A DNA stretch of 64,000 nucleotides. Source: Sphingobium sp. JS3065 (GTDB taxonomy: Bacteria > Pseudomonadota > Alphaproteobacteria > Sphingomonadales > Sphingomonadaceae). Every line of letters begins with the position of its first letter. Position 1 is the stretch's first letter. Where the stretch lies: positions 62,001 to 126,000 of the forward strand of contig NZ_CP102668.1 of NCBI RefSeq assembly GCF_026427355.1, given 5' to 3'. Of the stretch, positions 43,278 through 59,163 are shown one piece after another. Under the pieces are notes generated by a model. It searched no databases and had not been told where the DNA came from. It saw only the letters and a list, made by a program, of their open reading frames with translations. A program made the position numbers and the translations under genes.

Positions 43278-44384
43278 TCAACGCTCCCGCCCACGCTCCG
43301 GCGCTGGCCGCTCGGGACCAGCTCCACCCTCCAGCTCGCGCGTCGGCTGTGTCGCTTGCCGCCCCTGCATCATCTCGCGGGCCAGGGCGAGACGTCGGGA
43401 GACCGCCGGCGGCATAGCCGCCAAGAAACCCGCAATTTCGTCGGAAAGCGCCTGGTCGTCGGCCTCGCCGGTACGTGCAAGCGCCACCGCCGCCTCGGCA
43501 TAAGCACCGCGTATCTGCTTCTGGCGAACCAGCGCCATCACGTCTTGCGGCCGCCGTTCCTCATCGCGCGCGTGCGCAAAGGCCCGGGCGCGCAGCACGT
43601 TGAGTTCATCCATATTGAGCCGGCGCCCCTCCTGACCGATCCGAGCATCGAGATGCAGCGCTGCAGAGCGCACACGCTTTTGAACGTGACCGCGCGCCCG
43701 CCTGGGCGTCGCCTCAGCCGCGATGCCGCGCGCCCGTAGCTCATGCGCGAATGTCTCTCGCATATGATGGAGGTCGGCCTTGCGCGGATTGAACCGCGTG
43801 CCGTCCGCACCTTCTGTGGCCACCGTCAGATGGACATGCGGATGATCGGTATCTGTGTGGAGCGCCAGCATATAGGCGTGATTGTCCTCGAACAGGATCC
43901 GGGCGAACGCCTGGACGGCGTCCTGCAGCGTCTCGGGATCGGTCGAACCGCCGGGCATGGAGAGGACCAGCGACAGCGAGGTCGGCCGATCGCGGCCATG
44001 CTCGTTCATCGCCTCGTCGAGCATAGCCCAGTCCTGCGCGATCTCCTTCAGGCGCTTGGGATCATCAATGATCTCGCCTTCGCTTGAGCGTACCGCAAGC
44101 TTCCCGTGCCGCGCAACATAGCCGAAATGCTCGGATAGATGATGCGCGCCATATTGCTTTCCCGAGACCTTGACCATGACCTCCGGGGCCTTGCGCACGA
44201 TCCGCTCGAGCTTGGCCCGAGCCTCGGCCTGGCTCAGCGGCACGGGCCGCCCCGGCCCTCCCCGGCCCGATCCGCCTCGCCCGACGCGGACATAAGCCCC
44301 CCGCAGTATCCGTTTCCCGCCGGTGGGCGGCCGCCATGCCTCCATGAGGCTGGGCAGCGGCAGGATGCCCTCCTCCTCAAGCAT
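43278..44384 (-). CDS. Relaxase (VirD2/MobA-like)
   Basis: Nicks oriT and pilots the strand into the recipient. Start ATG 44384 (368 residues) is chosen because it overlaps the mobC end by 8 bases; the frame continues to 44495 inside mobC. The metal-binding histidines are in HTDTDHPHVHLTV (about residues 165-177), with an upstream HLSEHFGYVARHG segment and LSLVLSMPGGSTDPE. The active Tyr is not obvious; KQYGAHHLSEHFGYV offers candidates. The C-terminal third is Arg/Ala-rich and helical. The relaxase lies 32 kb from the T4SS operon, separated by cargo. Confidence 0.85.
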   Translation of the reverse strand: MLEEEGILPLPSLMEAWRPPTGGKRILRGAYVRVGRGGSGRGGPGRPVPLSQAEARAKLERIVRKAPEVMVKVSGKQYGAHHLSEHFGYVARHGKLAVRSSEGEIIDDPKRLKEIAQDWAMLDEAMNEHGRDRPTSLSLVLSMPGGSTDPETLQDAVQAFARILFEDNHAYMLALHTDTDHPHVHLTVATEGADGTRFNPRKADLHHMRETFAHELRARGIAAEATPRRARGHVQKRVRSAALHLDARIGQEGRRLNMDELNVLRARAFAHARDEERRPQDVMALVRQKQIRGAYAEAAVALARTGEADDQALSDEIAGFLAAMPPAVSRRLALAREMMQGRQATQPTRELEGGAGPERPAPERGRER

Positions 44385-44913
44385 CGAGGCTGTCCCAATA
44401 GGCAAGATCGCCCTTGAGCGCGGCGCCGAGACCGGCAAGCGCCGTCCCGATTTCCGCCCGGAAGCTTGCCACCCGCGCCGCCTCGCGGGCAACATCGAGC
44501 CCGGATTCCACCATCACCGAGGCATTGAGCGCCCGCGTCGCCTGATTGAGATTGATGCCGATCCGGTTGAGCTCGCGCCACGCCTGAGCCACTGCCGCCC
44601 GCTCTTCAAGCGGCAGCGATGCCGCCGAATGCAGCCAGCGGCGCACCAGCCTTGTCACCCAGTCTGTGCGCTTCATACCCAAAGCATCAGCCTCGGCATC
44701 CAGCGCGGCAATTTCTGCATCGCTCAGCCGGATCTCAAACCGCCGTGTTGCTCGCTCCCGCCGGCGGACTGGCCCCGACCGCTCGCCCTCCTCCGCGTCC
44801 ACTGCATTCATGACGAGGCGCCGCAGCAAAACCGAGCGGCCACCGGCGCTCTCCGCCACAGCATCGAAGCGCTGAGCGACTGCATCGTCGAGACGAAAGG
44901 TGAAGACGGACAT
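44377..44913 (-). CDS. mobC: MobC-like oriT accessory protein
   Basis: 178 residues with an RHH-like N-terminal half (SVFTFRLDDAVAQRF; RRFEIRLSDAEIAALDAEAD, KRTDWVTRLVRRWL) and the MobC signature ELNRIGINLNQATRALNA (about 113-130). Such proteins bind oriT and assist nicking. It is the first gene of the mob pair and faces the putative oriT. Confidence 0.82.
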   Translation of the reverse strand: MSVFTFRLDDAVAQRFDAVAESAGGRSVLLRRLVMNAVDAEEGERSGPVRRRERATRRFEIRLSDAEIAALDAEADALGMKRTDWVTRLVRRWLHSAASLPLEERAAVAQAWRELNRIGINLNQATRALNASVMVESGLDVAREAARVASFRAEIGTALAGLGAALKGDLAYWDSLDA

Positions 44914-44986
44914 GCATCAAAGGCTATTGTCATACATCCCCGGCGTCACGCCTATCCGGCCCTCACCTTCACTCAACTCATCTGAT

Positions 44987-45004
44987 AGTCTGCTTGAGCA
45001 GACT
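44987..45004. repeat. Palindrome AGTCTGC-TTGA-GCAGACT, copy 1 (parS-like?)
   Basis: 7-base arms around TTGA. An identical site in reverse orientation lies at 47178-47195, so the pair brackets parB, parA and the small ORF. Candidate centromere (parS) or ParA/ParB operator. A partial match (TCTGCTTGAGC) recurs at 63248. Confidence 0.6.
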
Positions 45005-45090
45005 TCGACCATATTTGGCAAAATGCGCCTATCATTTACGCCTGATCCACGAGGGCGGCGCCGACGGCGCCGCCCCGGCTCGTATCTACG

Positions 45091-45121
45091 GAAAAGGCCG
45101 CACCCCAAAAGGGGCACGGCC
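45091..45121 (-). terminator. Rho-independent terminator of parAB
   Basis: On the minus strand, GGCCGTGCCCC-TTTT-GGGGTGCGGCC pairs over 11 bases (two G-U) and is followed by TTTTC. It lies 43 bases after the parB stop. Confidence 0.75.
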
Positions 45122-45163
45122 GACATACACACGAACAGGAAATGCGAACGCGGAGGAAGAGGG

Positions 45164-46096
45164 TCAGAGCATCGCGGCGTCGGGGCGTCCCTCAGACACG
45201 GCGCAAAGTCGTTCGGTCGCCACCTCCTGCCGAGAACCATCGCCAAAGATCACGACGACACGCGGGCCAAGAACAAGACGCGCGGGACGGCCATCAACTT
45301 CAACGGGAAGGCTGGCCTCTGGCGTTTGCGCCCCTGGTCGCGCGACTGGCTCAGTCCCTGCCTGCGGTTCGGGACGGACGGCGGGCACCGGCGCGGCCTG
45401 CACCTGTGCTGCCTCGATACTGGGAGCGTCCGTCTTTCCCTTCAGTCCGGCAATGAATCGTGCGCCTTCCGCCAATGTCGCGCCGCTCTCATCCCAGGCG
45501 CCCACATAGGCCTCGACTTCCGCAGGATAATCCCTGGCTGTGCGATGCAGGTCGTAGAGCAGCCGGATCGACGCGCGCGGCAGCACTTCCCGGAGATAGG
45601 CAGGCATGTCCCCATAGGCTGCATAGAGCGAGACAAACTGCTTTGAGCGGCCCAGCGCAGCGGCGATCTCGACCTGGCTCATGCCGCCCTTGAGCATACG
45701 GGCAATCGCATGAGCGAGCTCGACCGAAGACAGGTTCGCACGCTGATCGTTCTCAACGATCTGATCGGCGAGCAGATGGGTTCCCTCCCCCTCGGCCACG
45801 ATGATCGCCGGGATCGTCACCCGGCCCGCGAGTTGGGAGGCACGAAAGCGCCTCTCGCCCAAACGGATGCGATGCAAGCCGGCGGCGTCGGCGGGCGCAA
45901 CCGTGATCGGCTGCAAGAGCCCGCGGGCCGCTATGGAGGCCGCAAGCTCGGCCAGGGCGTCATCGTCGAAACTGCGCCGGGGATTGCCGGGGTCGGGGAT
46001 GACTCGATCCAGAGGGATTTCCTCGATCCGGCGCGCTGTTTCATGCGCGCCGACGAGCAGGCCGAACTCCTCGATGCGTTCGTCGAACTTACCCAT
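45164..46096 (-). CDS. parB: ParB partition protein
   Basis: 310 residues from ATG 46096, which overlaps the parA stop by one base (TGATG); the frame extends to 46426 inside parA. ParB/Spo0J N-terminal domain: IPLDRVIPDPGNPRRSFDDD, LQPITVAPA, LGERRFRASQLAG and VENDQRANLSSVELAHAIARM; HTH: MSQVEIAAALGRSKQFVSLY. A Pro/Ala-rich linker (about 225-265) leads to a short C-terminal dimerisation region. Partners with ParA in plasmid segregation. Confidence 0.92.
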   Translation of the reverse strand: MGKFDERIEEFGLLVGAHETARRIEEIPLDRVIPDPGNPRRSFDDDALAELAASIAARGLLQPITVAPADAAGLHRIRLGERRFRASQLAGRVTIPAIIVAEGEGTHLLADQIVENDQRANLSSVELAHAIARMLKGGMSQVEIAAALGRSKQFVSLYAAYGDMPAYLREVLPRASIRLLYDLHRTARDYPAEVEAYVGAWDESGATLAEGARFIAGLKGKTDAPSIEAAQVQAAPVPAVRPEPQAGTEPVARPGAQTPEASLPVEVDGRPARLVLGPRVVVIFGDGSRQEVATERLCAVSEGRPDAAML

Positions 46097-46860
46097 CAGA
46101 TGGCGGCCGCTGGCGCTGAACCGAGCCGCCGTTCGATCTCGGCGAGGATCGGCCGAATTTCCTCGGCCGCCGCCTTGGCGCCGCCACCACCCTCCATCCA
46201 GACCGGCCGATGATTTTCCGCGGCATGCTTGTAGGTCGGTCGCGCCTTGATAAAGGCCGGGAACATCAGCCGCTCGCCCACCGCGTGCGCGAGCTTGACG
46301 GCATTGTCTATTTCGCGCCGGTCGAACGGGTTGACCATCGATGGCAGCAATCCGAGGAAATCGATCTTGCGCCCTGCCCTCGCCGCCTCGGCCTTGCGCA
46401 GCGCGGTCAGCAGCATCTTGGCGCACTCGACCGAATCTTCGGCGACCTGGACGGGCGCGATCACTGCGTCGGCGACCGCGAGAGCGCTCAGGGTCAGCTC
46501 ATCCCATTTGGGACCGGTATCGATCACGCACAGGTCGAAATGGGGCGCGAGCGCAGGAAAGCGGCCGAGAAAGTCGCGCACATCCTGCGCCGCCTTGATC
46601 ATTTGCAAACGCTGATCGGCGGCGAGCAAAGTGAGACCGACCCGACCGTCGGCGGCAAGCGCCGCCGACGGATCGAAGAGATCGGCCGCGAAGCCACCCG
46701 GCCGCTCGCGGGCTAGACGGCGCGACGAACTGCCTTGCGGGTCTAGGTCGACGAACACGACCCGGCGCCCTGCCGCTTCGGCCAGATACCAGGCGAGATG
46801 CGTGGCGAGAAAGGTCTTGCCTACCCCGCCCTTGAGAAGGCTCACGGCGATCGTTCTCAT
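46096..46860 (-). CDS. parA: ParA partition ATPase
   Basis: 254 residues from ATG 46860. Deviant Walker A KGGVGKT (residues 10-16), Walker A' VFVDLDPQGSS and Walker B-like FDLCVIDTGPKWDEL. There is no N-terminal HTH, so it is the short (type Ib-like) ParA; autoregulation would then fall to ParB or the palindromes. It is second in the order small ORF-parA-parB. Confidence 0.93.
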   Translation of the reverse strand: MRTIAVSLLKGGVGKTFLATHLAWYLAEAAGRRVVFVDLDPQGSSSRRLARERPGGFAADLFDPSAALAADGRVGLTLLAADQRLQMIKAAQDVRDFLGRFPALAPHFDLCVIDTGPKWDELTLSALAVADAVIAPVQVAEDSVECAKMLLTALRKAEAARAGRKIDFLGLLPSMVNPFDRREIDNAVKLAHAVGERLMFPAFIKARPTYKHAAENHRPVWMEGGGGAKAAAEEIRPILAEIERRLGSAPAAAI

Positions 46861-46873
46861 CGGTGCGGCCAGC

Positions 46874-47050
46874 TCAGCAATAGTCGTCCGGACCGTCGCG
46901 CAGATTGCGCTCATAATGGTCGCGCGATAACCAGTCGCCGCCGCCGCCGATGCCGGGACCGACATAGCGGAACAGGTAGACGGTGAGCGCGAAACAGCCG
47001 AACGCAAAGAGGATCGCGTGATCGGGATGCGCGGCGAAATAGGCGGACAT
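46874..47050 (-). CDS. 58-residue membrane protein upstream of parA
   Basis: Small gene starting at ATG 47050 behind a strong GAGGAG site and ending 13 bases before parA. The product has an N-terminal hydrophobic helix (AILFAFGCFALTVYLF, about residues 13-28), then VGPGIGGGGDWLSRDHYER and an acidic tail. One membrane span with a cytoplasmic tail is likely. I do not recognise the family. The spacing makes it the first gene of the par operon. Confidence 0.65.
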   Translation of the reverse strand: MSAYFAAHPDHAILFAFGCFALTVYLFRYVGPGIGGGGDWLSRDHYERNLRDGPDDYC

Positions 47051-47467
47051 GGCGTTAACTCCTCAAATGGTCTGATCCCGCGCCGGTTCACAGCTTTGCA
47101 TCGGCCGCACGGGGGCGATGCTCCGGTGCACCCTCCCCTCCCCGAGCGCACTTGGTGCGTGGACATCCTTTGCGCGCAGTCTGCTCAAGCAGACTTTTCA
47201 CGGCCATCCCCCCGGTCGGGGGGAGGCCGTGCCGATCAGTATTCCTCGGCGAGTAGGATCGTCAGAACCCGAGTGGTGACGTCGGGATTGGCTGGATCGG
47301 GTGAGCCCCAGGCAAGCTCGAGATCACGTCACGAGCCGCGCGCTCCATTGACCCCGACAGAGTTTGTCACCCCATTGAGCTATAATTTGCCTATCTAGAA
47401 AGATGAAAGATCGACAGAACTAAAATCTGCTCGAACTTCAGTTTCATGCGGAGGAAAGCGACACGGA
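47051..47467. other. Intergenic control region between par operon and mcrBC operon
   Basis: 417 bases between divergent operons. It contains palindrome copy 2 (47178-47195), a GC-rich hairpin (CGGCC-AT-CCCCCC, GGTC loop, GGGGGG-A-GGCCG, 47201-47229) and, on the minus strand near 47235-47325, a short open stretch without a start codon ending TILLAEEY, perhaps a gene remnant. AT-richer sequence near 47380-47440 probably holds the promoter of the restriction operon. Confidence 0.45.
47178..47195. repeat. Palindrome AGTCTGC-TCAA-GCAGACT, copy 2
   Basis: Exact reverse complement of the site at 44987-45004, located 128 bases upstream of the small ORF that begins the par operon, so suited to a centromere or operator role. 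Confidence 0.6.
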
Positions 47468-47878
47468 ATGACAAGACCAATCGAACGCTATCTGAGCGAA
47501 CTGACGCAAAAAGCTCAAGCCGCCGGTCTGGACATGGCGAAGCCCGGTTCAAACTGGGCGCCAATGCGACCCCTGATTCGCGGTACACATATCAGCACCA
47601 GCGTCACCAAGGATAAGGTCCAGGTGAATCTCAATAATGATCGCGACGAAGATCGGCAGCGCTACAACGCGCTCGTCGTTGATCGCGCCACAATCGATAC
47701 GGCCATCGGCATGGGTTTGAAATGGGAGAAGGAAGGCAGCGTCAAAAAGACCGTTATCCGCGCGACGCGTGACGGAGGATATGACGTTTCCGACTGGGAC
47801 GAGCAGCATGAATGGGCCATCACGATGATGAAGGCCTTCATCGATCAATTCGGTCCGCGCCTTGCGCGCTTCGGCTGA
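47468..47878 (+). CDS. DUF4268-like protein at head of mcrBC operon
   Basis: 136-residue protein with the DUF4268 C-terminal pattern: IDTAIGMGLKWEKEG, a charged strand pair and WDEQHEWAITMMKAFIDQFG. A GGAGG site precedes ATG 47468. DUF4268 domains often accompany restriction genes; the exact role is unknown. It ends 8 bases before mcrB and is almost certainly co-expressed. Confidence 0.6.
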   Translation: MTRPIERYLSELTQKAQAAGLDMAKPGSNWAPMRPLIRGTHISTSVTKDKVQVNLNNDRDEDRQRYNALVVDRATIDTAIGMGLKWEKEGSVKKTVIRATRDGGYDVSDWDEQHEWAITMMKAFIDQFGPRLARFG

Positions 47879-47886
47879 CTGACTTT

Positions 47887-50688
47887 ATGCAGGACCATGC
47901 GTTCAAGGCTGCGCTCAGTGCCGAGGGACAAGCTACCTCCAGCATCTCCACCCGGCTCTCCGATGCGCGTCGTATAGAAAAGCATTTCGGTGATCTTGAT
48001 GCCGCCTTTGCCCGAGATGGCTGCGCCGCGATCATGCAGGCGCTGACCTATACGACTTCGGACCAAGCGGCAGGTAGGGCCAATCCTTCGGGCATGCCCA
48101 TTGAGGGAAATCTCTATGATTCCCTGAGCAGCTACAGATCGGCTTTATCGGCCTATATTCGTTTTTTGAACGCATCACAGACTAATGTCGATGAATCCCA
48201 GGCTGACCGCATCCGCCAGTTTGTTGCGAGACATTATGCCGATAGCGCGCGCCAGGAGGGGCGCAAGCACTTCACGGTGATCTCAGGTCAGGTGCATCGT
48301 GACATGAATCTTCACAACGCCATGCCCGCTATCTGCAGCGCGCTTGGGTCCAAGAAATTCACTGCGATGATTGATGCCGAGCTTGCCGAGCGCGCAGGTC
48401 CCACCAATAGCTCGACGGTCAAATTTACCTTTGCCTTTCACCCAGACGGCAATTTTGACATCGCCGCAGCCGATCGAGAGCTACGCCGACGCTATGGCGA
48501 TCCCATTCCCACGATCAAACCCGAAGGCAACCAGAAGATCATCAGCTTCGCCCTGCATGATGAAAGACAGATTGCTCTTGAACTAGAGGGGAAAAGCGTC
48601 CGCCTGTGGCTAGAGGACGATGCGGACGCACCGCCGCCGCCTTGCGAGAAATTCGACACCTATCTTCCGAGCCAAGGCCGTCAAACCAATCTTCCGAGCC
48701 GCTTGCGGCACAATCCGCCGGGCGACATGCAAGCGCGACGTGTCATCAAAGCAGTTATTCCCCAGCTATCGACGCTGACCGCCGTGCTGGACTGGTACGA
48801 GGCAATCCACGAGGATATTATGCAACTGACCCGCGAGGCCGTCATTGAGGCAATGGCTGAATGCGATGCGCTAGGCGTTCAGCAGTTTCTCACCACGCAT
48901 GATTTCAGAAATCCCAACAGCTATTGGGTGGAGGAAAAGGGCAGGCATTATCCTGCAAAGGCGATTGCCAATGTCGGGTTACGCGCGATCCTCGGGCCAT
49001 CAACGAAAATCGTCGATGCAACCCGGTCGCGCGACATGCTTACGCGGCTTGGTTTTCTCGTGATCGACCGCAACGCCCAGGAAGATACAACACCGTCGGA
49101 CGAGCCGTTGCTACCGGAAAAACAACTGCCGCAAACCACGAACCTGATCCTGTACGGCCCGCCCGGAACCGGCAAGACCTACGCCACGGCGTGGGAAGCC
49201 GTGCGGCTCTGTCTCGGAGACGCTGCGGCGGCGCAATTGCGCCACGACAGGGATCGCCTGATGGCCGAATATCGCCGCCTCGCTGGCGAAGGGCAGATCG
49301 AGTTCGTCACCTTCCACCAGTCCTTCTCTTATGAGGATTTCGTCGAAGGATTGAGGCCGACGACCCGAACCGAGCTGGAGGGTGACCAGGAGCAGGATGT
49401 TACCGCATCAGGCGGCTTCAGCCTCAAGCCGCATGCCGGTGTCTTCAAGCTCATCAGCGAAAGGGCGCGGCTCGACACGGGTGATGCGCCCACGCGCCGG
49501 CTCGACCGCTCGAGATCGATTTATAAGATCGCCCTCGGACAGCGCGGCAATCAAGAGGATCGCATTAAGGAAGGGCTCGACGGCGCGCTGATCCATCTGG
49601 GCTGGGGTGGCGATATCGACTGGTCCGACGAACGCTTCGACGATTTCGAAGAAATTCGGAAGGAGTGGAACGAGAAAAAGGATCCCGATGCCTCCGGCAA
49701 GGACCCCAATATCGAGATGACCTACGCTTTCCGATCGGGCCTTCAGATCGATGATTATGTGGTCATTTCTGATGGACGGGATAGCTATCGCGCCTTTGGG
49801 CAGGTGACCGGCGAATATCGGTTCGATCCCGATGCCAGTTTCCATCCCCACCGCCGCAGCGTCAAATGGATATGGCGCGATGACGAGGGCGCAGAGCGAA
49901 GCGCCTTCTACCCGCGGAACTTTCGGCGGCAGTCCGCCTATCGATTGGATCCGGACGAGATCGATTGGGATGCGCTGGAAACCGTCGTCATTGGCCCCAA
50001 CGCGGAGCGCCCCGTCGCTGGCGCACGGCCACATGTGCTGGTCATCGACGAAATCAACCGGGCCAACATCTCGCGGGTGTTCGGCGAGCTGATTACGTTG
50101 CTCGAAGTGGACAAACGCTTGGGCTGCGAGAACGAAGTAAGGGTCCGGCTACCCTATTCCGGAACAAGCTTCGGCGTACCGTCGAACCTTCACATCATCG
50201 CCACCATGAACACCGCTGACCGTTCAATCGCGCTGCTCGACACCGCGCTGCGCCGCCGGTTCACGTTCCGCGAGTTGATGCCAGACACCGAAGCGCTTCG
50301 CGGAGCGCTGGCGGCAAAGCAAATCGACGCCAATAATGTCGACGGAATCGATCTGTGCAAACTGATGCGAACCATCAATGAACGGATCGAGTATCTTTTC
50401 GATCGAGAACACCAAATCGGTCACGCCTATTTCACAGGATGCCGCAGACGTGCGGACGTCGAGGACGTCATGCGCCACAAGGTCATCCCGCTTCTGGCCG
50501 AGTATTTCTATGAGGACTGGTCAAAGGTCGCTGCCGTACTCGGCGACAGCGACGGCGCGGCGGGTGCTCGGTTCATTGGGGCAAAAAGGCTTTCCACGCC
50601 GGCGAGCTTTGCTGAAGATGAATTTGGGGGCGACAAGCTGCGCTGGAGCGTGAAGGCAAGCTTCGATTTTTCGGAATTCGAAATCTGA
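47887..50688 (+). CDS. mcrB: McrB-type GTPase/AAA+ motor with an internal EVE-like domain
   Basis: Motor of a type IV (modification-dependent) restriction system, 933 residues from ATG 47887. The N-terminal part (1-230) is unrecognised. A segment near 325-390 (REAVIEAMAECDALG, FLTTHDFRNPNSYWV, RHYPAKAIANVGLRAILG) resembles the ScoMcrA head domain. Walker A GPPGTGKT is near 424, then FHQSFSYEDFVEGLRP. An insert at about 540-705 (ALIHLGWGGDIDWSD, LQIDDYVVISDG, GQVTGEYRFDP, PHRRSVKWIW) has EVE/PUA-like features. VLVIDEINRAN (about 717) and the McrB-type ATMNTADRSIALLDTALRRR complete the motor. It overlaps mcrC by one base. Confidence 0.9.
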   Translation: MQDHAFKAALSAEGQATSSISTRLSDARRIEKHFGDLDAAFARDGCAAIMQALTYTTSDQAAGRANPSGMPIEGNLYDSLSSYRSALSAYIRFLNASQTNVDESQADRIRQFVARHYADSARQEGRKHFTVISGQVHRDMNLHNAMPAICSALGSKKFTAMIDAELAERAGPTNSSTVKFTFAFHPDGNFDIAAADRELRRRYGDPIPTIKPEGNQKIISFALHDERQIALELEGKSVRLWLEDDADAPPPPCEKFDTYLPSQGRQTNLPSRLRHNPPGDMQARRVIKAVIPQLSTLTAVLDWYEAIHEDIMQLTREAVIEAMAECDALGVQQFLTTHDFRNPNSYWVEEKGRHYPAKAIANVGLRAILGPSTKIVDATRSRDMLTRLGFLVIDRNAQEDTTPSDEPLLPEKQLPQTTNLILYGPPGTGKTYATAWEAVRLCLGDAAAAQLRHDRDRLMAEYRRLAGEGQIEFVTFHQSFSYEDFVEGLRPTTRTELEGDQEQDVTASGGFSLKPHAGVFKLISERARLDTGDAPTRRLDRSRSIYKIALGQRGNQEDRIKEGLDGALIHLGWGGDIDWSDERFDDFEEIRKEWNEKKDPDASGKDPNIEMTYAFRSGLQIDDYVVISDGRDSYRAFGQVTGEYRFDPDASFHPHRRSVKWIWRDDEGAERSAFYPRNFRRQSAYRLDPDEIDWDALETVVIGPNAERPVAGARPHVLVIDEINRANISRVFGELITLLEVDKRLGCENEVRVRLPYSGTSFGVPSNLHIIATMNTADRSIALLDTALRRRFTFRELMPDTEALRGALAAKQIDANNVDGIDLCKLMRTINERIEYLFDREHQIGHAYFTGCRRRADVEDVMRHKVIPLLAEYFYEDWSKVAAVLGDSDGAAGARFIGAKRLSTPASFAEDEFGGDKLRWSVKASFDFSEFEI

Positions 50689-51998
50689 TGCCATCCTACA
50701 TCGTTCGCGAGTGGGACAAACTCACTTATGGCGACGGCGCGGTCCAGATTCCCCCGCACCACGCTGATAAGCTGGCCAGCCTAGCCGCCCAATCGGCATT
50801 TGCCGGGCGGGGCGGAGGCGGCGTGCTCGACCACGGTCGACACGCCTTGCGCGCGCGGGGCGTGGTAGGAATTCTGGCGGCCCGCGATTGCAGCTTGGAG
50901 ATTCTACCCAAGATAGACGTAGCGCCAGGCGAAACGATCGATCATCAAAATGCGGCGATCCGAAAACGCCTGATCCACATGCTGGCTGTCGCGCTCGATC
51001 TCAAAATCGACCTTGGTGCGGTGACTGATCTTGCCTGGCAGCGCGAAACGCTGCTTGAAATCCTGATCCGCATCTTCTGCGACAAGCTGACCGAAGCCCT
51101 GCGCAAGGGCACGCCGCGTCGCTATGTCGGGCATGAGGAAGATCTGCCGACACTGCGCGGCAGGCTCGACATTACCCGGCAGTTCACCCGCCATGCCGTC
51201 AACCCATCCCGCCTGGCCTGCCGCTTCGATCTTCTGTCGGAGGACATAGCGCTCAACCGCATCATGAAGGCGGCCATTTCGCACGTGTCCCGCATATCGC
51301 GTCGTCCGGCCAACCAACAGCGATTGCGCGAACTCGCCTTCGTCTACGCGGACATAACCGATGTACCGGTGTCGGGCCTACGATGGGATGAAGCGGTCAT
51401 CGATCGCACCAATCGTCCTTGGCGAGACTTGTTCGGCATGGCCCGGCTTCTCCTCCAGAGCCGCTACCAAACAACGACCGGCGGCACCGGTCAGGGGACC
51501 GCCCTCCTCTTCGAAATGAACACCTTGTTTGAGGAGTATGTCGGGCGGCTGATAGCACGCGCGCTTGCCGGAACGGAGTTTACCGTATCTCTGCAGGGCG
51601 GGCGATTGTTCTGCCTCTCTGCCGAGGACAGCGGCCGCGGCCTGTTCCAGACCAAACCGGACATTCTGATCCGTCGTTCGGGCGTCGTGGTACATGTGAT
51701 CGACACCAAATGGAAAAGGATCGCATCACGAATGGATGATCCCAAGCAGGGGGTCTCCCAAGCCGACATCTATCAGATGATGGCCTATGCGCAGCTTTAT
51801 CATGCTCCGCGGCTAACGCTGCTATATCCGCACCATCCAGGCTTGGGCATGACAGAGGCGGTCCACGCCCAGCACCGCATCACCGGCCACACAACCCTTT
51901 TAGAGACAGCGACCGTCGATGTGTCGAGCAGCGTCGACATGCTTGCGCGCCTGCGCCGCCTGCTCCTGTGCGAAGATGCCGCCCTCAGCGCATCCTAA
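50688..51998 (+). CDS. mcrC: McrC nuclease subunit
   Basis: 436 residues. N-terminal McrC domain, LEILPKIDVAPGE, DLPTLRGRLDITRQF and RFDLLSEDIALNRIMKAA in the middle, and a C-terminal PD-(D/E)xK nuclease with TKPDILIRR and VIDTKWK (about 322-345) followed by DIYQMMAYAQLY. It works with the McrB motor to cut DNA bearing the modified bases that the complex recognises. The gene is intact and ends 46 bases from the convergent AAA gene. Confidence 0.92.
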   Translation: MPSYIVREWDKLTYGDGAVQIPPHHADKLASLAAQSAFAGRGGGGVLDHGRHALRARGVVGILAARDCSLEILPKIDVAPGETIDHQNAAIRKRLIHMLAVALDLKIDLGAVTDLAWQRETLLEILIRIFCDKLTEALRKGTPRRYVGHEEDLPTLRGRLDITRQFTRHAVNPSRLACRFDLLSEDIALNRIMKAAISHVSRISRRPANQQRLRELAFVYADITDVPVSGLRWDEAVIDRTNRPWRDLFGMARLLLQSRYQTTTGGTGQGTALLFEMNTLFEEYVGRLIARALAGTEFTVSLQGGRLFCLSAEDSGRGLFQTKPDILIRRSGVVVHVIDTKWKRIASRMDDPKQGVSQADIYQMMAYAQLYHAPRLTLLYPHHPGLGMTEAVHAQHRITGHTTLLETATVDVSSSVDMLARLRRLLLCEDAALSAS

Positions 51999-52044
51999 AC
52001 GCTGACAGACAATGCACTTCAACAGATGGGGACGGAGAACCAGA

Positions 52045-54300
52045 TTACGTCTCGGAGAGTTTTCTCAAGCCTTCGTAGTGAAGCGGCGCCACAGACTTAA
52101 TCATATCCAATAAATATTCTGCGTTCTTTTGCGCCTCTGCCACGAGGGCAGGATCAAAACTCTTTCCTGTATGGTGCGACAGGTCATTTGCAAATTTATA
52201 AATTGCCGTCTTTTTGATCGGGTCATAATCCACGTCATCCATTTTCTGATAAAGCGACTTGCGCGATGGAACATGGAAGTCGAGAAACGTCTCAAGTACT
52301 TTACGAGAAATATTTGGAACATGGTAACAACCGAGAATCGTTCCATCTGATTTGAATGTATGGAGCACCTTGAAGAGATAGTGATACTCGGTCGCATGAT
52401 CGATCAAAAGCCTATCCAACGGAGTTATCCTCGCAGATCGACCTTCTTCAGTCTCCGTGCATAGCACCATCGAATAGGATTTCGTATTTTCTTGGCCGCG
52501 CACATTCTGCAGCCAGTTTATGATTAACTTAAGGAATTCAAAATTATGGGTCAGGATGAATAGTTGCTTCGCGCGCTGGGTCTCGTTCTTGAGGAATGCG
52601 AAGGCCTGATAGATCGCCGAAGCATCAAGACTGGAAATCGGATCGTCGATGACGACGATTCCTTCGCCAATGTTAAAATCCTGATCCTTAAGTTGCACGA
52701 GGAAATAGATGAAGGCGACGGCTGTCTTTTCGCCCTCACTCAGGCGCTTGGCCGGCTTGCCGCGCCGCAGGACGCGATAGCCCTCATCGCCGGACTCAAA
52801 GCGTAGCTCCGTCCTGCCAAGGAACTGTTTGAGAAGGTCGGTCAGGCCAAGCCCGCCCGCATGTGCACTTGAAACCTTGGCTTGCTTCTCTCGAATTGAC
52901 TGAGACAGAGCCTCGATCCCGCGTTTGTCCTCAAGATCCTCACCGCCGTTTTGCCACAGTTCGATTTCAGCATTCAGCTTTGCAGCCTTGTCAGTTAATT
53001 CTTCGACATCGGCTTTGATGGACAGAAGATGATGCGCCTCAATGGCGTCGCGGGCCGCCCGCTTCTCTCGCTCGAAGCCTGCCGTTTTGTCATTATGGCG
53101 CGCGATGAGCGCCTTAATCATGCCCAGCGCTGCGGTCAGCTGTATCGTATCACAGGCGATTTCCGGCTCATAAGCCGTGGTCCGCAAGGTCAGCTTTTCG
53201 GTCAGGATCCCATCGATCTTCTCCAGGCTCAGCTGCAGGGTCGCGAGCTCAGCTTCAACCGATGTCTGCGCGGCGTCGTAATCTGCTCGAAGTTCGGAAT
53301 AGAACATCAGACGATCGGGCAGCGCCGTCCTGCCAAGCGCATCGATGATGGCGCGGAGGCTGAGGCGCTCCGCGTCGATTTCTTCCTTCAGCCTTTGGTC
53401 TTCGACACTGAAATGGTCGGAAAGTGCCCTGAGGCGGTCAGCAGGCATGATCTGGTCGCAGAATTCGCAGCGACCGGTTGCATGTTTGGCATGGATACCA
53501 ACGCCTTGTTCGGCCCAGAGGGCTATATCGGGGTTTTCCGCAAGACGGGCGATGACGGCCGACTGCGCCGAACGCATCGTCAGTGCCTTGGCACGATCCC
53601 CGGCGCCAGCGGCAGCCTGCAAGGCGCTGATGGGCTCCTGCCCCGGTCGTTCGGGACCCCGCGGGATGGTGAGCGGGTTAATCTCGGGCATTTGCTCCTG
53701 ACGAACGGTGCCGCGATGAACCTCGTATTCGCCTTCGGATAGAGCCCTCTCATCCCCAAGCTTGACGTAGGCTGCTTCAGCGTCGGGCTTGCGATAACTG
53801 CGAAGGGTTGACCCGCTGGTGGCCTCACCAATGGTCTTGGCGATGGCGGAAAACAACTTGCCCTTGTCATTCACAAGCTTGACCACGGCAGCCTCATTGG
53901 CCTGGACACGCTTTACTCGATCGTCGCGAATGGCGATTTCAGCCTTCAGCTCCTCGGCAATGGCCTTGTTCTCTTCGCCGAGGATGAGAATATGCCGAAG
54001 CGGCCCGTCGAAACGACCGATATTCGCTTCAACAAAGTCGCTGTTGAAGACACGTACGCGGCGGCCATACTTCACTCCCTTCGTGAGCTGGCCGGACTGC
54101 GATTCAACTGTGAACTCAAGATCGGGGTGATCGGGATGCTCACCCGATTCCAGGCAGGCAAGCAGCCGCGAGAGGGTTGTTTTGCCAGAGCCATTCTCGC
54201 CATAAACTACGTTGTAGCGGCCAAAGGCGGGAAAATCGGCGGCCGCCGCGTAATCGCCAAAAACGCCTAAGCCCTTAATCTTCTTGATCTGAGTAAGCAT
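52045..54300 (-). CDS. RloC/PrrC-like AAA ATPase with putative HEPN nuclease end
   Basis: 751 residues. ABC-type head (AAA_13): Walker A YGENGSGKTTLSRLL (about 33), signature RLSEGEKTAVAFIYFL and Walker B GIVVIDDPISSLD late in the protein, with coiled coils between. A CEFC zinc-hook-like motif sits at residues 278-281. The C-terminal part has R-x3-E (R666, E670 in SRKVLETF) and NDLSHHTG (His about 709-710), resembling the R/E/H catalytic set of PrrC and RloC anticodon nucleases. These cut tRNA when phage or DNA damage is sensed. The gene end (52045-52560) is AT-richer than the rest. The tRNase role is inferred. Confidence 0.65.
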   Translation of the reverse strand: MLTQIKKIKGLGVFGDYAAAADFPAFGRYNVVYGENGSGKTTLSRLLACLESGEHPDHPDLEFTVESQSGQLTKGVKYGRRVRVFNSDFVEANIGRFDGPLRHILILGEENKAIAEELKAEIAIRDDRVKRVQANEAAVVKLVNDKGKLFSAIAKTIGEATSGSTLRSYRKPDAEAAYVKLGDERALSEGEYEVHRGTVRQEQMPEINPLTIPRGPERPGQEPISALQAAAGAGDRAKALTMRSAQSAVIARLAENPDIALWAEQGVGIHAKHATGRCEFCDQIMPADRLRALSDHFSVEDQRLKEEIDAERLSLRAIIDALGRTALPDRLMFYSELRADYDAAQTSVEAELATLQLSLEKIDGILTEKLTLRTTAYEPEIACDTIQLTAALGMIKALIARHNDKTAGFEREKRAARDAIEAHHLLSIKADVEELTDKAAKLNAEIELWQNGGEDLEDKRGIEALSQSIREKQAKVSSAHAGGLGLTDLLKQFLGRTELRFESGDEGYRVLRRGKPAKRLSEGEKTAVAFIYFLVQLKDQDFNIGEGIVVIDDPISSLDASAIYQAFAFLKNETQRAKQLFILTHNFEFLKLIINWLQNVRGQENTKSYSMVLCTETEEGRSARITPLDRLLIDHATEYHYLFKVLHTFKSDGTILGCYHVPNISRKVLETFLDFHVPSRKSLYQKMDDVDYDPIKKTAIYKFANDLSHHTGKSFDPALVAEAQKNAEYLLDMIKSVAPLHYEGLRKLSET

Positions 54301-56067: not shown

Positions 56068-56475
56068 TCAGAATGGGATTTCATCGTCCTCAGGCTCATG
56101 GCCACCGCCTGCGTTGTCGTTCGCCTTGGCGCGGGTGAGGAAGGTCACTTCATCGGCGATGATCTCGACGCCGTAGCGCTCGATATTCTCGTTGTCGGTC
56201 CAGCGGGTGTAGTGAATGCGGCCACGGACCATGACCTTCATGCCTTTGTCGACATACTGCTCGACCGTCTTGCCGACCCCGTTGAAGCAGGTGATCCGAT
56301 GCCATTCGGTATCCTCGAGCCGGCGGTTATTGTCGTCGCGGAGGATCTTGCCGTTGCTGTCGCGCTTCGGGCGCGAGGTGGCCAGGCTGAAATGGGTGAT
56401 ACGGGTGCCGCCCTGGGTGGTGCGGGCTTCGGGCGTGGCGCCGACATTGCCGGCGAGGATGACGAGATTCTGCAT
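56068..56475 (-). CDS. ssb: Single-stranded DNA-binding protein
   Basis: 135 residues from ATG 56475 (GAAGGAA upstream). OB fold: MQNLVILAGNVGATPEAR, ITHFSLATSRP, TEWHRITCFN, VDKGMKVMVRGRIHYTRW and EIIADEVTFL, then an acidic tip DDEIPF that recruits partner proteins. Plasmid SSBs in the leading region coat the incoming strand after conjugation and limit SOS induction. A conserved motif lies about 100-155 bases upstream. Confidence 0.95.
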   Translation of the reverse strand: MQNLVILAGNVGATPEARTTQGGTRITHFSLATSRPKRDSNGKILRDDNNRRLEDTEWHRITCFNGVGKTVEQYVDKGMKVMVRGRIHYTRWTDNENIERYGVEIIADEVTFLTRAKANDNAGGGHEPEDDEIPF

Positions 56476-56908
56476 GGCTGAAGTTCCTTCGAACTGGGTC
56501 CAAGGGACCGTCCCTTCGACTGATCCCCGGCCAAGGCGGACAGGACGGACCATCCACCGGCAGGCGCAGCGCCGGGAAACCCCGAGACAAGGGGTGGTGC
56601 GGGCAGCCGTGGGACACGGCAACTCGGCCCGAGGGCTCGCGGGTTGGATGGGCTGGATGGCCGACTTAGGGGTCAGATGAGGAGAAGGACGTTTCGTCGC
56701 TTGGCCGTGCCAGGAACCCCTCCATGGTAATCATGGGCATCCGCGAGCTATGGGACCACGCCGGTCCAACAGCTTGGCGAACCTCAAACTCGACTTTGCC
56801 CCGCCCGCCGCCTCAAACCGCGCGGCGAACGGACCATGTTCCGCGCCGCGGTCCGGCGGAACCCAAACGATGGCATGCTTATGCAAGGGGATAGGCAAGA
56901 AGGCGCAG
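56476..56908. other. Non-coding region upstream of ssb
   Basis: 433 bases. The part nearest ssb (to about 56645) holds a structured motif shared with the DUF2493 leader. The rest (56646-56908) has GC-rich inverted stretches such as around GGACCACGCCGGTCC (56752-56766) and no supported gene. Confidence 0.5.
56574..56631 (-). promoter_or_regulatory. Conserved leader motif, copy 1 (upstream of ssb)
   Basis: Reading the minus strand: GGCCGAGTTG, CG-hairpin (CCGTG-TCC-CACGG), CTGCCCGC, CCACC, TTGTC, CGGGG, TTTCCC. The same ordered blocks occur upstream of DUF2493 (58695-58752) with changed stem sequences (GCGC-TTG-CGCGC), i.e. compensating changes that keep a hairpin. It could be a structured mRNA leader or a single-strand promoter like the F-plasmid Frpo. 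Confidence 0.6.
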
Positions 56909-57537
56909 TTACGGCGCCGGCATCGGCAGGCTTAGTCCGGCCGCCACGGCATCGAGGAGCGAGCCCGTCGCGCGCAGTGCGGCCGCGAAATCGCAAACAT
57001 AACCATCCGCCACCAGCGCGTCGATGCGATGCGCGGCATAGGCGGGACCGAGGCTTGTAAGAACATCGACGAGAATACGGCTCCGGGACGGGAGGCCGAG
57101 CTGTCGCGCCTCTTCAAAGGCGGTAAGGAGGTCGTGACCGATATCGCTCGCGACCTCCTCGTGCGACCAGCCCCGGCTCATAAGATAGGCTTTGAGTCCC
57201 AGCTCGCAGGATATCGCCAGCAGGTGCAGCGCCGGGGCAGAGGCAACGGTAGCTCCAAAGCGTGCCCCTTCGTGAAACTCGCGCGCGCGATCAAGGAAGA
57301 TCGAGGCGGCCTGCCGATCGCCGAGCTCCGCCAATCTCTCGATCGCGCGCCAGCGGTGCGACGATAGCCGGCGAAGCCATGCCGGGCCGGCCTGGTTGCG
57401 CAACTGGCGCAGGCACGCGCCTCTTCGATGTCGCGGCCGGTTGACCACAAGAACAACAGCTTCGCTTTCCAGTAGCGGCCATACGCCGTGCGAAAAGCCA
57501 GGAGCGCGCGCGCCGTGGGGTGATCGGGCATGAACAT
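56909..57537 (-). pseudogene. Frameshifted helical gene (HEPN-like?)
   Basis: Translation should begin at ATG 57537 (GGAGG 8 bases upstream) with MFMPDHPTARALLAFRTAYG and continue through LLFLWSTGRDIEEAR. At about 57415 the plausible sequence moves to another frame: ACLRQLRNQAGPAW, then AIERLAELGDRQAASIFLDR, CELGLKAYLMSRGWSHEE and IGHDLLTAFEEARQLGL, to the stop at 56909. One base appears missing in a GC repeat (GCGCGTGCC). The GLKAYL...GHDL pattern recalls HEPN-like proteins. It is either a real frameshift, a sequencing error, or less likely two genes. Confidence 0.5.
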
Positions 57538-57611
57538 GGTGCAAACCTCCGGGAAAACAGGACGCCACCGTCCTGCCCTCCTCCCCTCCGGCATTTGCAG
57601 CATTTCGAAAC

Positions 57612-57640
57612 GGGGAAAGCCGGCCGCCGAAGCGGCCGGC
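57612..57640 (-). terminator. Terminator after DUF2493
   Basis: On the minus strand, GCCGGCCGC-TTCG-GCGGCCGGC is a perfect 9-base stem with a stable TTCG loop followed by TTTCC, 8 bases downstream of the DUF2493 stop. Confidence 0.8.
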
Positions 57641-57648
57641 GCGGCGGA

Positions 57649-58590
57649 TCAACCGCAGGATCGCGACGCTGGCGGCGTGCCAAGCGGTCCGCGGCGATCA
57701 ACGACGTGGATGCCGCGCGCCTTGGCCTCGATCACCAGCCTTTCAGTGACACCATTGCCTTGAAAGGCGATGACGTAGCGCGGCTTGACCGAAAGCATCT
57801 GCTCATTGCGGCGGAACCCCGCGCGATCGCCGAGCTTGCGATCGAGCCCGAACCGCAGCTGCTGGATACCGTTCTGCTCGGCCCAGGACGCGGCCAGGCG
57901 CTCAATGCCTTTCATGTCGCCGCCATGGACGAGATACATGTCGCCCACCCGCTCACGAACGGCATTGAGCGTTCGCAACAGGTTATCCGCGAACTGCTTG
58001 GCATCGTCGTCGCTGGCGAAACGCAGCCGCCCGCCGGCGAAGATCACGGGCGTGCCATGGACCATATTGGCATCGCGCACCCTTTCTCGCCGCGCCTGGA
58101 GATAGGACCGGCCATCGACGATCGCCGCGGTCGTGCCGAGCGAAATGCGGTTGCCCGACGCCGGCACCCAGGAACGGCCCGTCTCGTGGAGATAATGGCG
58201 GGCCGCCGTGTCGCGCATGGTCTCATAAGCCTCGGCGGACTGCTCGATCTTGCGGGCGAGATCGATCTTGTCCTCAAGGTCGGCGGTCGCGACCTCCGAG
58301 CCATCCTGCTCGGCGAGCACGAGCCGAATTTCGTCCGTCAGCCGGTCGATCATCTGGTGCTTCTTGGCGGCGGCGCGGTGGAAAAGATTGACCAGGCCCC
58401 AGCCCAGATCCTCGATGTCGCGCTCGAGCGCACTAAAGGGAAAAAGCGCGAAAAGATCGCTCCAGACAGCGCTGACAGTTTGTTCCATGGCTTCGGCGGG
58501 GGGCGGCGCCTCTAGGGTGCGCAGGTCGCTGGTGCGATCAAGATGACCGAGTTCGAGCGCGGAGAGTATCGCTGAGAGAGTGCTGGTCAT
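57649..58590 (-). CDS. DUF2493 (Rossmann/SLOG-like) protein
   Basis: 313 residues from ATG 58590; the frame continues upstream into the leader. The N-terminal two thirds are helical (EQTVSAVWSDLFALFPFSAL). The C-terminal third (about 190-300) is DUF2493: RERVRDANMVHGTPVIFAGG, the nucleotide-binding-like DMYLVHGGDMKGIERLAASW, and PRYVIAFQGNGVTERLVIEA-type strand/helix. Related SLOG proteins bind nucleotide-derived ligands. Frequent on alphaproteobacterial plasmids; function unknown. It has its own leader motif and terminator, so it is a monocistronic unit. Confidence 0.75.
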   Translation of the reverse strand: MTSTLSAILSALELGHLDRTSDLRTLEAPPPAEAMEQTVSAVWSDLFALFPFSALERDIEDLGWGLVNLFHRAAAKKHQMIDRLTDEIRLVLAEQDGSEVATADLEDKIDLARKIEQSAEAYETMRDTAARHYLHETGRSWVPASGNRISLGTTAAIVDGRSYLQARRERVRDANMVHGTPVIFAGGRLRFASDDDAKQFADNLLRTLNAVRERVGDMYLVHGGDMKGIERLAASWAEQNGIQQLRFGLDRKLGDRAGFRRNEQMLSVKPRYVIAFQGNGVTERLVIEAKARGIHVVDRRGPLGTPPASRSCG

Positions 58591-59163
58591 GAGCTTTGCC
58601 TTTCGTTCCACTTGGGGCCGGCGGCCCATCCGCCGGATGCGCAGCCTCCGGGCCATCGAAGGAAGCGGCGGCAGCACCGCCGGGCAAAGCCCAAGGGAAA
58701 CCCGGGACAATGCCAGGTGGAGCGGGCAGGCGCGCAAGCGCCAACTCGGCCGGATTGGCCCCGGGTTGCGGCCGCCAGCGCGATGGCCCAAGCATGCGCA
58801 TCCTCTGGCGAGGGGCCAAGGTCTCAACGGGAAGAGCAGGCGCTTGCTGGCCGGAACAGCGACTATGCAGTGCCGCGCTCGCTCGTGGGGATGGGACGGG
58901 CGTGCCGAACCGGTCCGTCGTCGGCACGCCCGTCTCCAACATGCGGCTCAATCACCGCACGCGGCCGGTCCATATGACGGCCGGCCTGGTGGGCTTCCTG
59001 CGGGATCGCCGCCATTCCCACCGCCATGCTCGATCCGCCCCATCGTGCGGCGTCTCCCATGGTCCCCGCGCTTATCGGGTCCGGGTCCCCATCATCCGTC
59101 CACCTGAGCTGACATTGTGCCGATTGCCTCGATCTCAGCGATCCGCTGAAATTCGCCGAGATA
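58591..59163. other. Non-coding region between DUF2493 and the ParB/recombinase operon
   Basis: 573 bases. The DUF2493 leader occupies 58591 to about 58760, with the conserved motif at 58695-58752. A perfect hairpin with 14-base arms GACGGGCGTGCCGA / TCGGCACGCCCGTC and a 12-base loop lies at 58895-58934, possibly a bidirectional terminator. No supported gene. Confidence 0.5.
58695..58752 (-). promoter_or_regulatory. Conserved leader motif, copy 2 (upstream of DUF2493)
   Basis: Minus strand: GGCCGAGTTG, hairpin GCGC-TTG-CGCGC, CTGCCCGC, CCACC, TTGTC, CGGG, TTTCCC; same order and near-same spacing as the motif before ssb. It lies 105-162 bases before the start codon. Confidence 0.6.

Follow-up and report, generated by a model that had tools for sequence, protein, structure and literature searches.

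The promoters read by the virion RNA polymerase of phage N4 are DNA hairpins with a three-letter, purine-rich loop that are transcribed in single-stranded form, for which a dedicated phage polymerase is needed. Single-strand promoters are also established in a few enterobacterial plasmids, and a large survey, as its main text describes it, sought others by similarity or by −35/−10 and UP boxes (PMC11541004). In F, according to the passages of PMC9849209 that deal with this region, ssb depends for its early expression on Frpo2, which stands ahead of it, and without Frpo1 or Frpo2 there is no significant rise of downstream fusions, including that of ssb, in recipients. A further structured element, STAXI (Weinberg 2010), is presented in its section of PMC2864571 as a pseudoknot repeated two or three times, for which a role as single-stranded DNA was considered. 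Here, a stretch of 64,000 nucleotides (nt) from Sphingobium sp. JS3065 (contig NZ_CP102668.1, positions 62,001–126,000; the window, whose own positions are used as coordinates) is found to carry two copies of a long hairpin element, made of the stems P1, P2 and P3, one before ssb and the other before a DUF2493 gene. This element is unrelated to Frpo in sequence and, on balance, is probably a single-strand promoter of the same kind, a reading in which we infer transcription from the fold, the position and the mismatches described below.

The hairpin core before ssb lies at 56573–56646 on the minus strand and scores 85.9 bits with R2 and 91.6 bits with R1, which are covariance models of 18 and 14 sequences, respectively, whereas the core before the DUF2493 gene lies at 58694–58768 on the minus strand (R2, 72.1 bits). 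The two copies are about 2.1 kb apart, one element per gene, and the motif ends 97 nt before the start codon of ssb and 103 nt before that of DUF2493. The ssb gene (56068–56475, minus strand) encodes 135 amino acids with 94.8% identity to the pSLPG protein annotated as single-stranded DNA-binding, and the DUF2493 gene (57649–58590, minus strand) belongs to the YAcAr/YspA SLOG family (PF10686; Pfam 61.7 bits). The first-pass annotation of this DNA had described two blocks with the same ordered elements, and direct reading, alignment and the strict pattern GCCGAGTTG-N5-20-CTGCCCGC-N-CCACC all confirm them, on the minus strand; across the 5.1 Mb of the genome the pattern occurs at these two sites only, and the control gives 0 matches. 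The block is indeed shared, but the 58 bases given for it become about 75 once the outer stem P1 is counted. Model searches find five copies in the genome, namely the two in the window and those at C1:390215, C3:239269 and C1:387919. The observation of a structured motif holds and is stronger than it was first described.

The element is a long hairpin that runs from the outer stem P1 through the stem P2 and a conserved near-helix, interrupted by an A/T mismatch, to the variable hairpin P3. In P1, AACC... pairs with ...GGTT over up to 13 pairs, frequently with a bulged G, this pairing of the halves being strand-neutral; in the ssb copy its arms, at 56636–56645 (AACCCGCGAG) and 56578–56586 (CTCGGGGTT) on the minus strand, leave one G bulged out. 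P2 comprises three to five pairs of the GGG/CCC, CCGG/CCGG and CGAG/CTCG types, plus a CCCAG/CTGGG type read by eye. The conserved letters CCGWGTT then face TGCCCGCWCC and flank P3, which in the ssb copy lies at 56606–56620 (minus strand). Among 129 unique cores, P3 takes 33 distinct stems with 754 of 799 cells Watson–Crick, and the 3 G.T cells in that count all stem from a misplaced register of P3 in DUF2493 forms of one type. Read on the transferred strand, the loop of P3 is GNA in 71 and ANA in 23 of the 129 cores; GNA loops are specially stable in DNA. An earlier arrangement, in which R1 took ACCCC..GGGGT as a third hairpin, was discarded when more sequences showed that the GGTT end pairs with the 5' AACC of P1, and R2 replaced R1.

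The compensating stem changes seen at first pass are also seen in the family. In the 18-sequence alignment, 92.5% of cells pair and two-sided changes affect 9 of 15 pairs (32 cells); 0 of 500 shuffles, which do not preserve relatedness, equal these two counts or the covariation score, and the signal collapses when the partners are slid. When P1/P2 arms were swapped among eight representatives, taken from clusters made by complete linkage, the observed sum was reached in 2 of 20000 permutations and five of the eight ranked their own partner first. Similarly, P3 arms are Watson–Crick at 0.93 with their own partner versus 0.49 when crossed (61 hairpins). The letter W of CCG[W]GTT is T in 116, A in 62 and C in 1 of the 179 ssb and DUF2493 matches, and the pattern with G or C at this position gives 0 matches in 296 genomes. 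As W stands opposite C in an otherwise complementary CG-W-G / C-C-CG stretch, a mismatch seems to be kept.

The element is closely tied to two genes. Out of 195 R1 matches, 148 lie 80–125 nt before ssb and 31 lie 94–107 nt before DUF2493, the rest being too near the locus edge (8) or elsewhere (8). As the search sources overlap, 148 and 31 are matches and not independent cases; they amount to 152 unique leaders, or 38 clusters at 85%. Later R2 matches add L223 and L224 before ssb and L227 before DUF2493. In L125 (1753–1823, Paracoccus) the element precedes a DUF3768 gene, in L166 (6812–6847, a metagenome-assembled genome (MAG) titled Phycisphaerae) it stands beside a DUF6876 gene, and in L072/L221 (L221 1501–1574) it stands ahead of a short frame, past which lies an N6_Mtase-like gene; these look real and may be further target genes. 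The other five of the eight, the weak R1 matches at L073–L077 (24.6–28.6 bits), look like chance. A weak match (27.4 bits) is also seen outside the class, near a TraG_N gene (L225, 1501–1563).

A covariance-model search of sphingomonad plasmids had been suggested at the outset. The motif does recur beyond the window, in association with leading-region genes. By blastn, 44 plasmid records carry the ssb copy (typed as conjugative in 31 cases, mobilizable in 6 and non-mobilizable in 7) and 31 carry the DUF2493 copy; no annotated feature lies beneath the element among the matches listed, one listed record (two rows) being unannotated. R1 matches occur in 59 of 296 sampled genomes of the order and in 10 of 385 of the class, six of these ten being weak (24.6–29.7 bits), and R2 at E 0.01 matches 5 of 385 genomes at the level of the class and 7 of 299 at that of the phylum, this genome included. 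A pattern scan of genome_contigs gives at least 120 stretches, of which 115 of 120 also match R1; the five that do not (L118, L130, L171, L179 and L200) are titled Lentzea (four) and Actinobacteria bacterium (one). Judging from record titles, the named hosts are mostly Sphingomonadales and Rhodobacterales, with some Hyphomicrobiales (Shinella, and presumably also Mesorhizobium and a Devosia MAG); Phenylobacterium (Caulobacterales) and Henriciella (Hyphomonadales) each appear in the title of a single MAG, and the taxonomy lines of the plasmid records confirm Rhodobacterales and Hyphomicrobiales. The motif is therefore more than a local duplication, being present in other plasmids and in chromosome-sized contigs. 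The strict pattern has 0 matches in viral_contigs, so that a phage origin is unsupported.

The position of the element with respect to transfer genes is recurrent as well. Both ssb and DUF2493 had been said to read toward the origin of transfer (oriT), with the relaxase beyond it, and the order of genes along the minus strand of the window agrees: DUF2493, a frame with no Pfam match, ssb, then ParA, ParB, an intergenic stretch, MobC and the relaxase. The relaxase is MobA/VirD2-like (43278–44495, minus strand; PF03432, Pfam 56.8 bits), and MobC (44377–44913, minus strand) was placed by tblastn onto the annotated MobC of pSLPG (73%) and pEP2 (54%). The intergenic stretch 44914–45163 is the likely oriT region, given a plus-strand block, GCCTATCCGGCCCT, which an alignment shows to be common to four plasmids and which we take to resemble the RP4 nic site. 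The reading frames of ParB (45164–46426) and ParA (46096–47166), both on the minus strand and recognised by Pfam, lie between the ssb side and MobC. The gene order of the window is kept in pSLPG and pEP2. Among 107 loci of 5 kb or more, 15 gave best hits to four relaxosome proteins within the stretch around the locus; all 25 of these hits are downstream of ssb and share its strand, as do the ArdC hits, of which 20 of 20 lie upstream. As these genes are read toward the putative oriT, the transferred strand is their template, which in the window is the plus strand. A location in the leading region, with the downstream gene templated by the transferred strand, fits the gene order around the putative oriT.

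Elsewhere, the element occurs in other company. In C1, the largest contig of the genome, it is found with ParB-like, ArdC, DUF2493, ssb, TrwB and TrwC genes, and in contig C3 of the genome and in G399 with TrwB and TrwC; in G297 it accompanies ParB-like, ArdC, DUF2493 and phage integrase genes, with no relaxase recognised among the proteins scanned. A CD-NTase (SMODS) gene stands about 2 kb past TrwC in the C1 element (L207, 10009–11454). Between ssb and ParA in the window, McrBC-type genes occupy the plus strand and the minus strand carries an AAA_13 gene; the whole of 47468–54300 is a restriction- or defence-like cluster (DUF4268, AAA_5 with McrBC, AAA_13), none of which is there in pSLPG. 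The letters YATCCTGY are absent from the likely oriT stretch 44914–45163; in the window as a whole they have 17 matches versus 7.7 expected, a number reached in 0 of 100 shuffles, perhaps through codon bias. A role of CTGCCCGC as a relaxase site was set aside: the strand that bears it is complementary to the transferred one, and relaxases of both the MobA/VirD2-like and the TrwC type are found alongside the element.

Closer to the genes stands a second hairpin, P5. In the ssb leader it occupies 56502–56516 (minus strand), before the ribosome-binding site, and the mismatches of its family lean to G.T on the messenger RNA (mRNA) strand; in the DUF2493 leader it is placed at 58618–58636 (minus strand) by likeness to other DUF2493 leaders; for L155, a leader nearly identical to it, the scan settled on a different register. 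P5 recurs immediately ahead of the ribosome-binding site in most leaders of ssb and DUF2493, as a GGAYRG.CC-like core enclosed by a variable stem. In three ssb leaders (L035, L036 and L038) the whole element is enclosed by an outer inverted repeat, with CCCTTCGAC on its upstream side and GTCGAAGGG on its downstream side.

The two hairpins offer a test of whether a fold is selected as DNA or as RNA. RNA helices tolerate changed pairs as G.U, whereas the changes tolerated by a fold of the complementary strand appear as A.C on the mRNA strand. Mismatches flanked by Watson–Crick pairs were counted once per sequence cluster and site, with an equal penalty for all kinds, and P1–P3 could be parsed in 146 of the 152 unique sequences, the six others being DUF2493 leaders that lack P3. 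On the mRNA strand, P1–P3 has 17 A.C to 3 G.T and P5 has 3 A.C to 21 G.T (Fisher 1.8e-6, 38 clusters at 85% identity); a coarser clustering into 17 clusters gives 14:3 versus 3:15 (Fisher 1.5e-4). Moreover, pyrimidine–pyrimidine and purine–purine mismatches on this strand stand at 53:9 in P1–P3 and at 7:16 in P5, and the pyrimidine lean of P1–P3 amounts to a purine–purine lean on the transferred strand. Since P1–P3 and P5 share their leaders and lean in opposite ways, a mutational bias of one strand does not explain the contrast. The excess of A.C in P1–P3 and of G.T in P5 suggests, as far as sequences can tell, that P1–P3 is selected as folded single-stranded DNA of the entering strand and P5 as RNA.

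A single-strand promoter would most simply account for a template-strand fold that stands before early-entering genes and has an RNA-like hairpin between it and the ribosome-binding site. On entry into the recipient, the P1–P2–P3 hairpin would form as DNA in the transferred strand, the plus strand here, and its nearly continuous, imperfect duplex could mimic double-stranded DNA for the host transcription machinery. Synthesis of ssb and the DUF2493 product might then start early, ahead of the second strand; once that strand is made, the hairpin would be lost and both genes would be silent again. With a transcription start in the interval from P1 to P5, P5 would be carried in the mRNA beside the ribosome-binding site. 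The start and the timing proposed here, like transcription itself, we infer.

Several results weigh against a fold of the transferred strand that acts as a promoter. The P1/P2 arms of the ssb type in the window rank only fifth of eight in the swaps (17.5 with their own partner versus a mean of 18.2 with other types), and support for the fold of this copy therefore rests on P3 and on the family. P3 is absent from 6 of the 152 unique sequences, all of them DUF2493 leaders. Three G.T events exist in P1/P2, the DUF2493 copy in the window has a further G.T in P2 (pair 18–57) outside those three, and event counts vary with the clustering. In a yardstick of eight F-type Frpo copies, the ratio of A.C to G.T is 7:3 where a pair is predicted for both strands, 15:4 in the pairs predicted for the transferred strand and 8:8 in those predicted for the mRNA strand. 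Predicted optimal folds contain P1 and P3 together in 51 of 114 cases for the transferred strand as DNA versus 65 of 114 for the mRNA strand as RNA, and the DNA optimum of the transferred strand of the ssb copy in the window differs from the consensus fold. The transferred strand is lower in energy in 119 of 122 cases with DNA parameters, an advantage that it owes partly to its G-rich loops; by these models, energy folding alone does not choose the strand. Finally, −35/−10 boxes are not enriched over shuffles, in a scan that has no power, since F Frpo is likewise unremarkable in it. As for the six leaders that lack P3 (L132, L101, L152, L177, L183 and L163), they keep the P1 letters, and their CCGTGT and TGCCCGC parts are fused.

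The first-pass annotation had left the choice between a single-strand promoter and an RNA leader. Its inference is supported in part, by the covarying structure, the link to leading-region genes and the recurrent geometry. The mismatch asymmetry favours a fold of the transferred strand over an RNA leader for P1–P3, and the data suggest that both occur in tandem, P1–P3 as DNA and P5 as RNA. That P1–P3 is itself an RNA leader of the ssb and DUF2493 messengers, such as an attenuator, an autoregulatory site or a riboswitch-like structure, is unlikely, though it is the alternative to be taken most seriously. The narrow spacing of 80–125 nt to the start codon would suit it, its neighbour P5 looks like RNA, and the 65 of 114 optima that hold P1 and P3 in the mRNA strand as RNA are the best of the four cases compared. 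RNA helices, however, show a lean opposite to the A.C excess of P1–P3, and the ratio of 17 A.C to 3 G.T on the mRNA strand, the reverse of that in P5, is counted against an RNA leader. Nor does Rfam offer a relative near its gathering score: Rfam 15 has 0 matches in the 64 kb window at E 1, and two short stretches searched up to E 10 give 1 and 5 matches, the best at 16.8 bits versus a gathering score of 59.5.

The strand asymmetry would also fit a priming site or a protein-binding site, each of which would explain the gene linkage less well than a promoter does. It is improbable that P1–P3 serves as a single-strand initiation site priming second-strand synthesis, with its position before ssb a matter of history. 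Such a site is consistent with the mismatch counts, and F Frpo reportedly makes primer RNA too, according to the title of a 1997 paper by Masai and Arai. If it had no part in expression, however, it would be difficult to account for a copy before each of two different genes at a near-constant distance, and for the fact that, of the 187 matches not at a locus edge, 179 precede ssb or DUF2493. We give still less credence to a folded single-stranded site for an autoregulatory protein, such as the plasmid SSB, the DUF2493 product or a part of the relaxosome: CCGWGTT and TGCCCGCWCC around a variable stem do resemble a recognition surface, but both the binding and the candidate protein are hypothetical. 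A double-stranded operator or promoter with incidental repeats, whose conserved letters a protein could read on double-stranded DNA, is very improbable because P3 keeps its pairing and not its sequence over 33 stems and the P1/P2 arms covary as a set.

If the element is indeed a single-strand promoter, it could belong to a wider class. Tentatively, and with some doubt, it may be proposed that alphaproteobacterial conjugative elements own an independently evolved class of such promoters, with a G+C-rich hairpin, a mostly GNA-type triloop, a kept mismatch and a coupled 5' leader RNA hairpin, which would turn on ssb and a gene of the SLOG family for only as long as the entering DNA stays single-stranded, and which would span MOBP and MOBF as well as plasmids and chromosome-borne elements. 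This would be a second, unrelated class, so that early expression from entering DNA would have evolved more than once; the element would then mark leading regions in alphaproteobacteria, and DUF2493 would become a candidate establishment or anti-defence factor. The boxes used by the survey, as its main text gives them, are not visible in the element, and DUF2493 is not named in that main text (PMC11541004). No description of the element was found in Rfam 15 or in a non-exhaustive search of open-licence literature. In addition, the comparison of A.C with G.T in covarying helices, with an RNA-like neighbouring hairpin as control, may separate DNA folds from RNA folds elsewhere.

Among known systems, STAXI, as its section of PMC2864571 presents it, is alike in being a structured element near ssb, anti-restriction and DNA-handling genes, whereas the present element is one long imperfect hairpin per gene with no Rfam match (a pseudoknot within it was not searched for). 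Like the N4 promoters, it would form a DNA hairpin with a three-letter, purine-rich loop, and unlike them it has a long mismatched stem. The nearest likeness is to the Frpo/ssi elements of F, ColIb-P9 and their relatives, which, in the parts of PMC9849209 and PMC11541004 devoted to them, likewise lie in the leading region before ssb, fold in the transferred strand that serves as template, and occur in more than one copy before different leading genes. This likeness does not extend to sequence, R2 giving no match at E 0.05 in positions 46000–67000 of F. The element is about 75 nt long with 71% G+C, whereas the predicted fold of Frpo is about 300 nt with 56% G+C; it also differs in its hosts, in its variable apical stem and in showing no −35/−10 boxes in that powerless scan. 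The mismatch lean of Frpo runs in the same direction as that of the element on two of three pair sets and is absent on the third. The element is thus not put forward as a homologue of Frpo and, if the promoter reading is right, it would be Frpo-like in the way it works.

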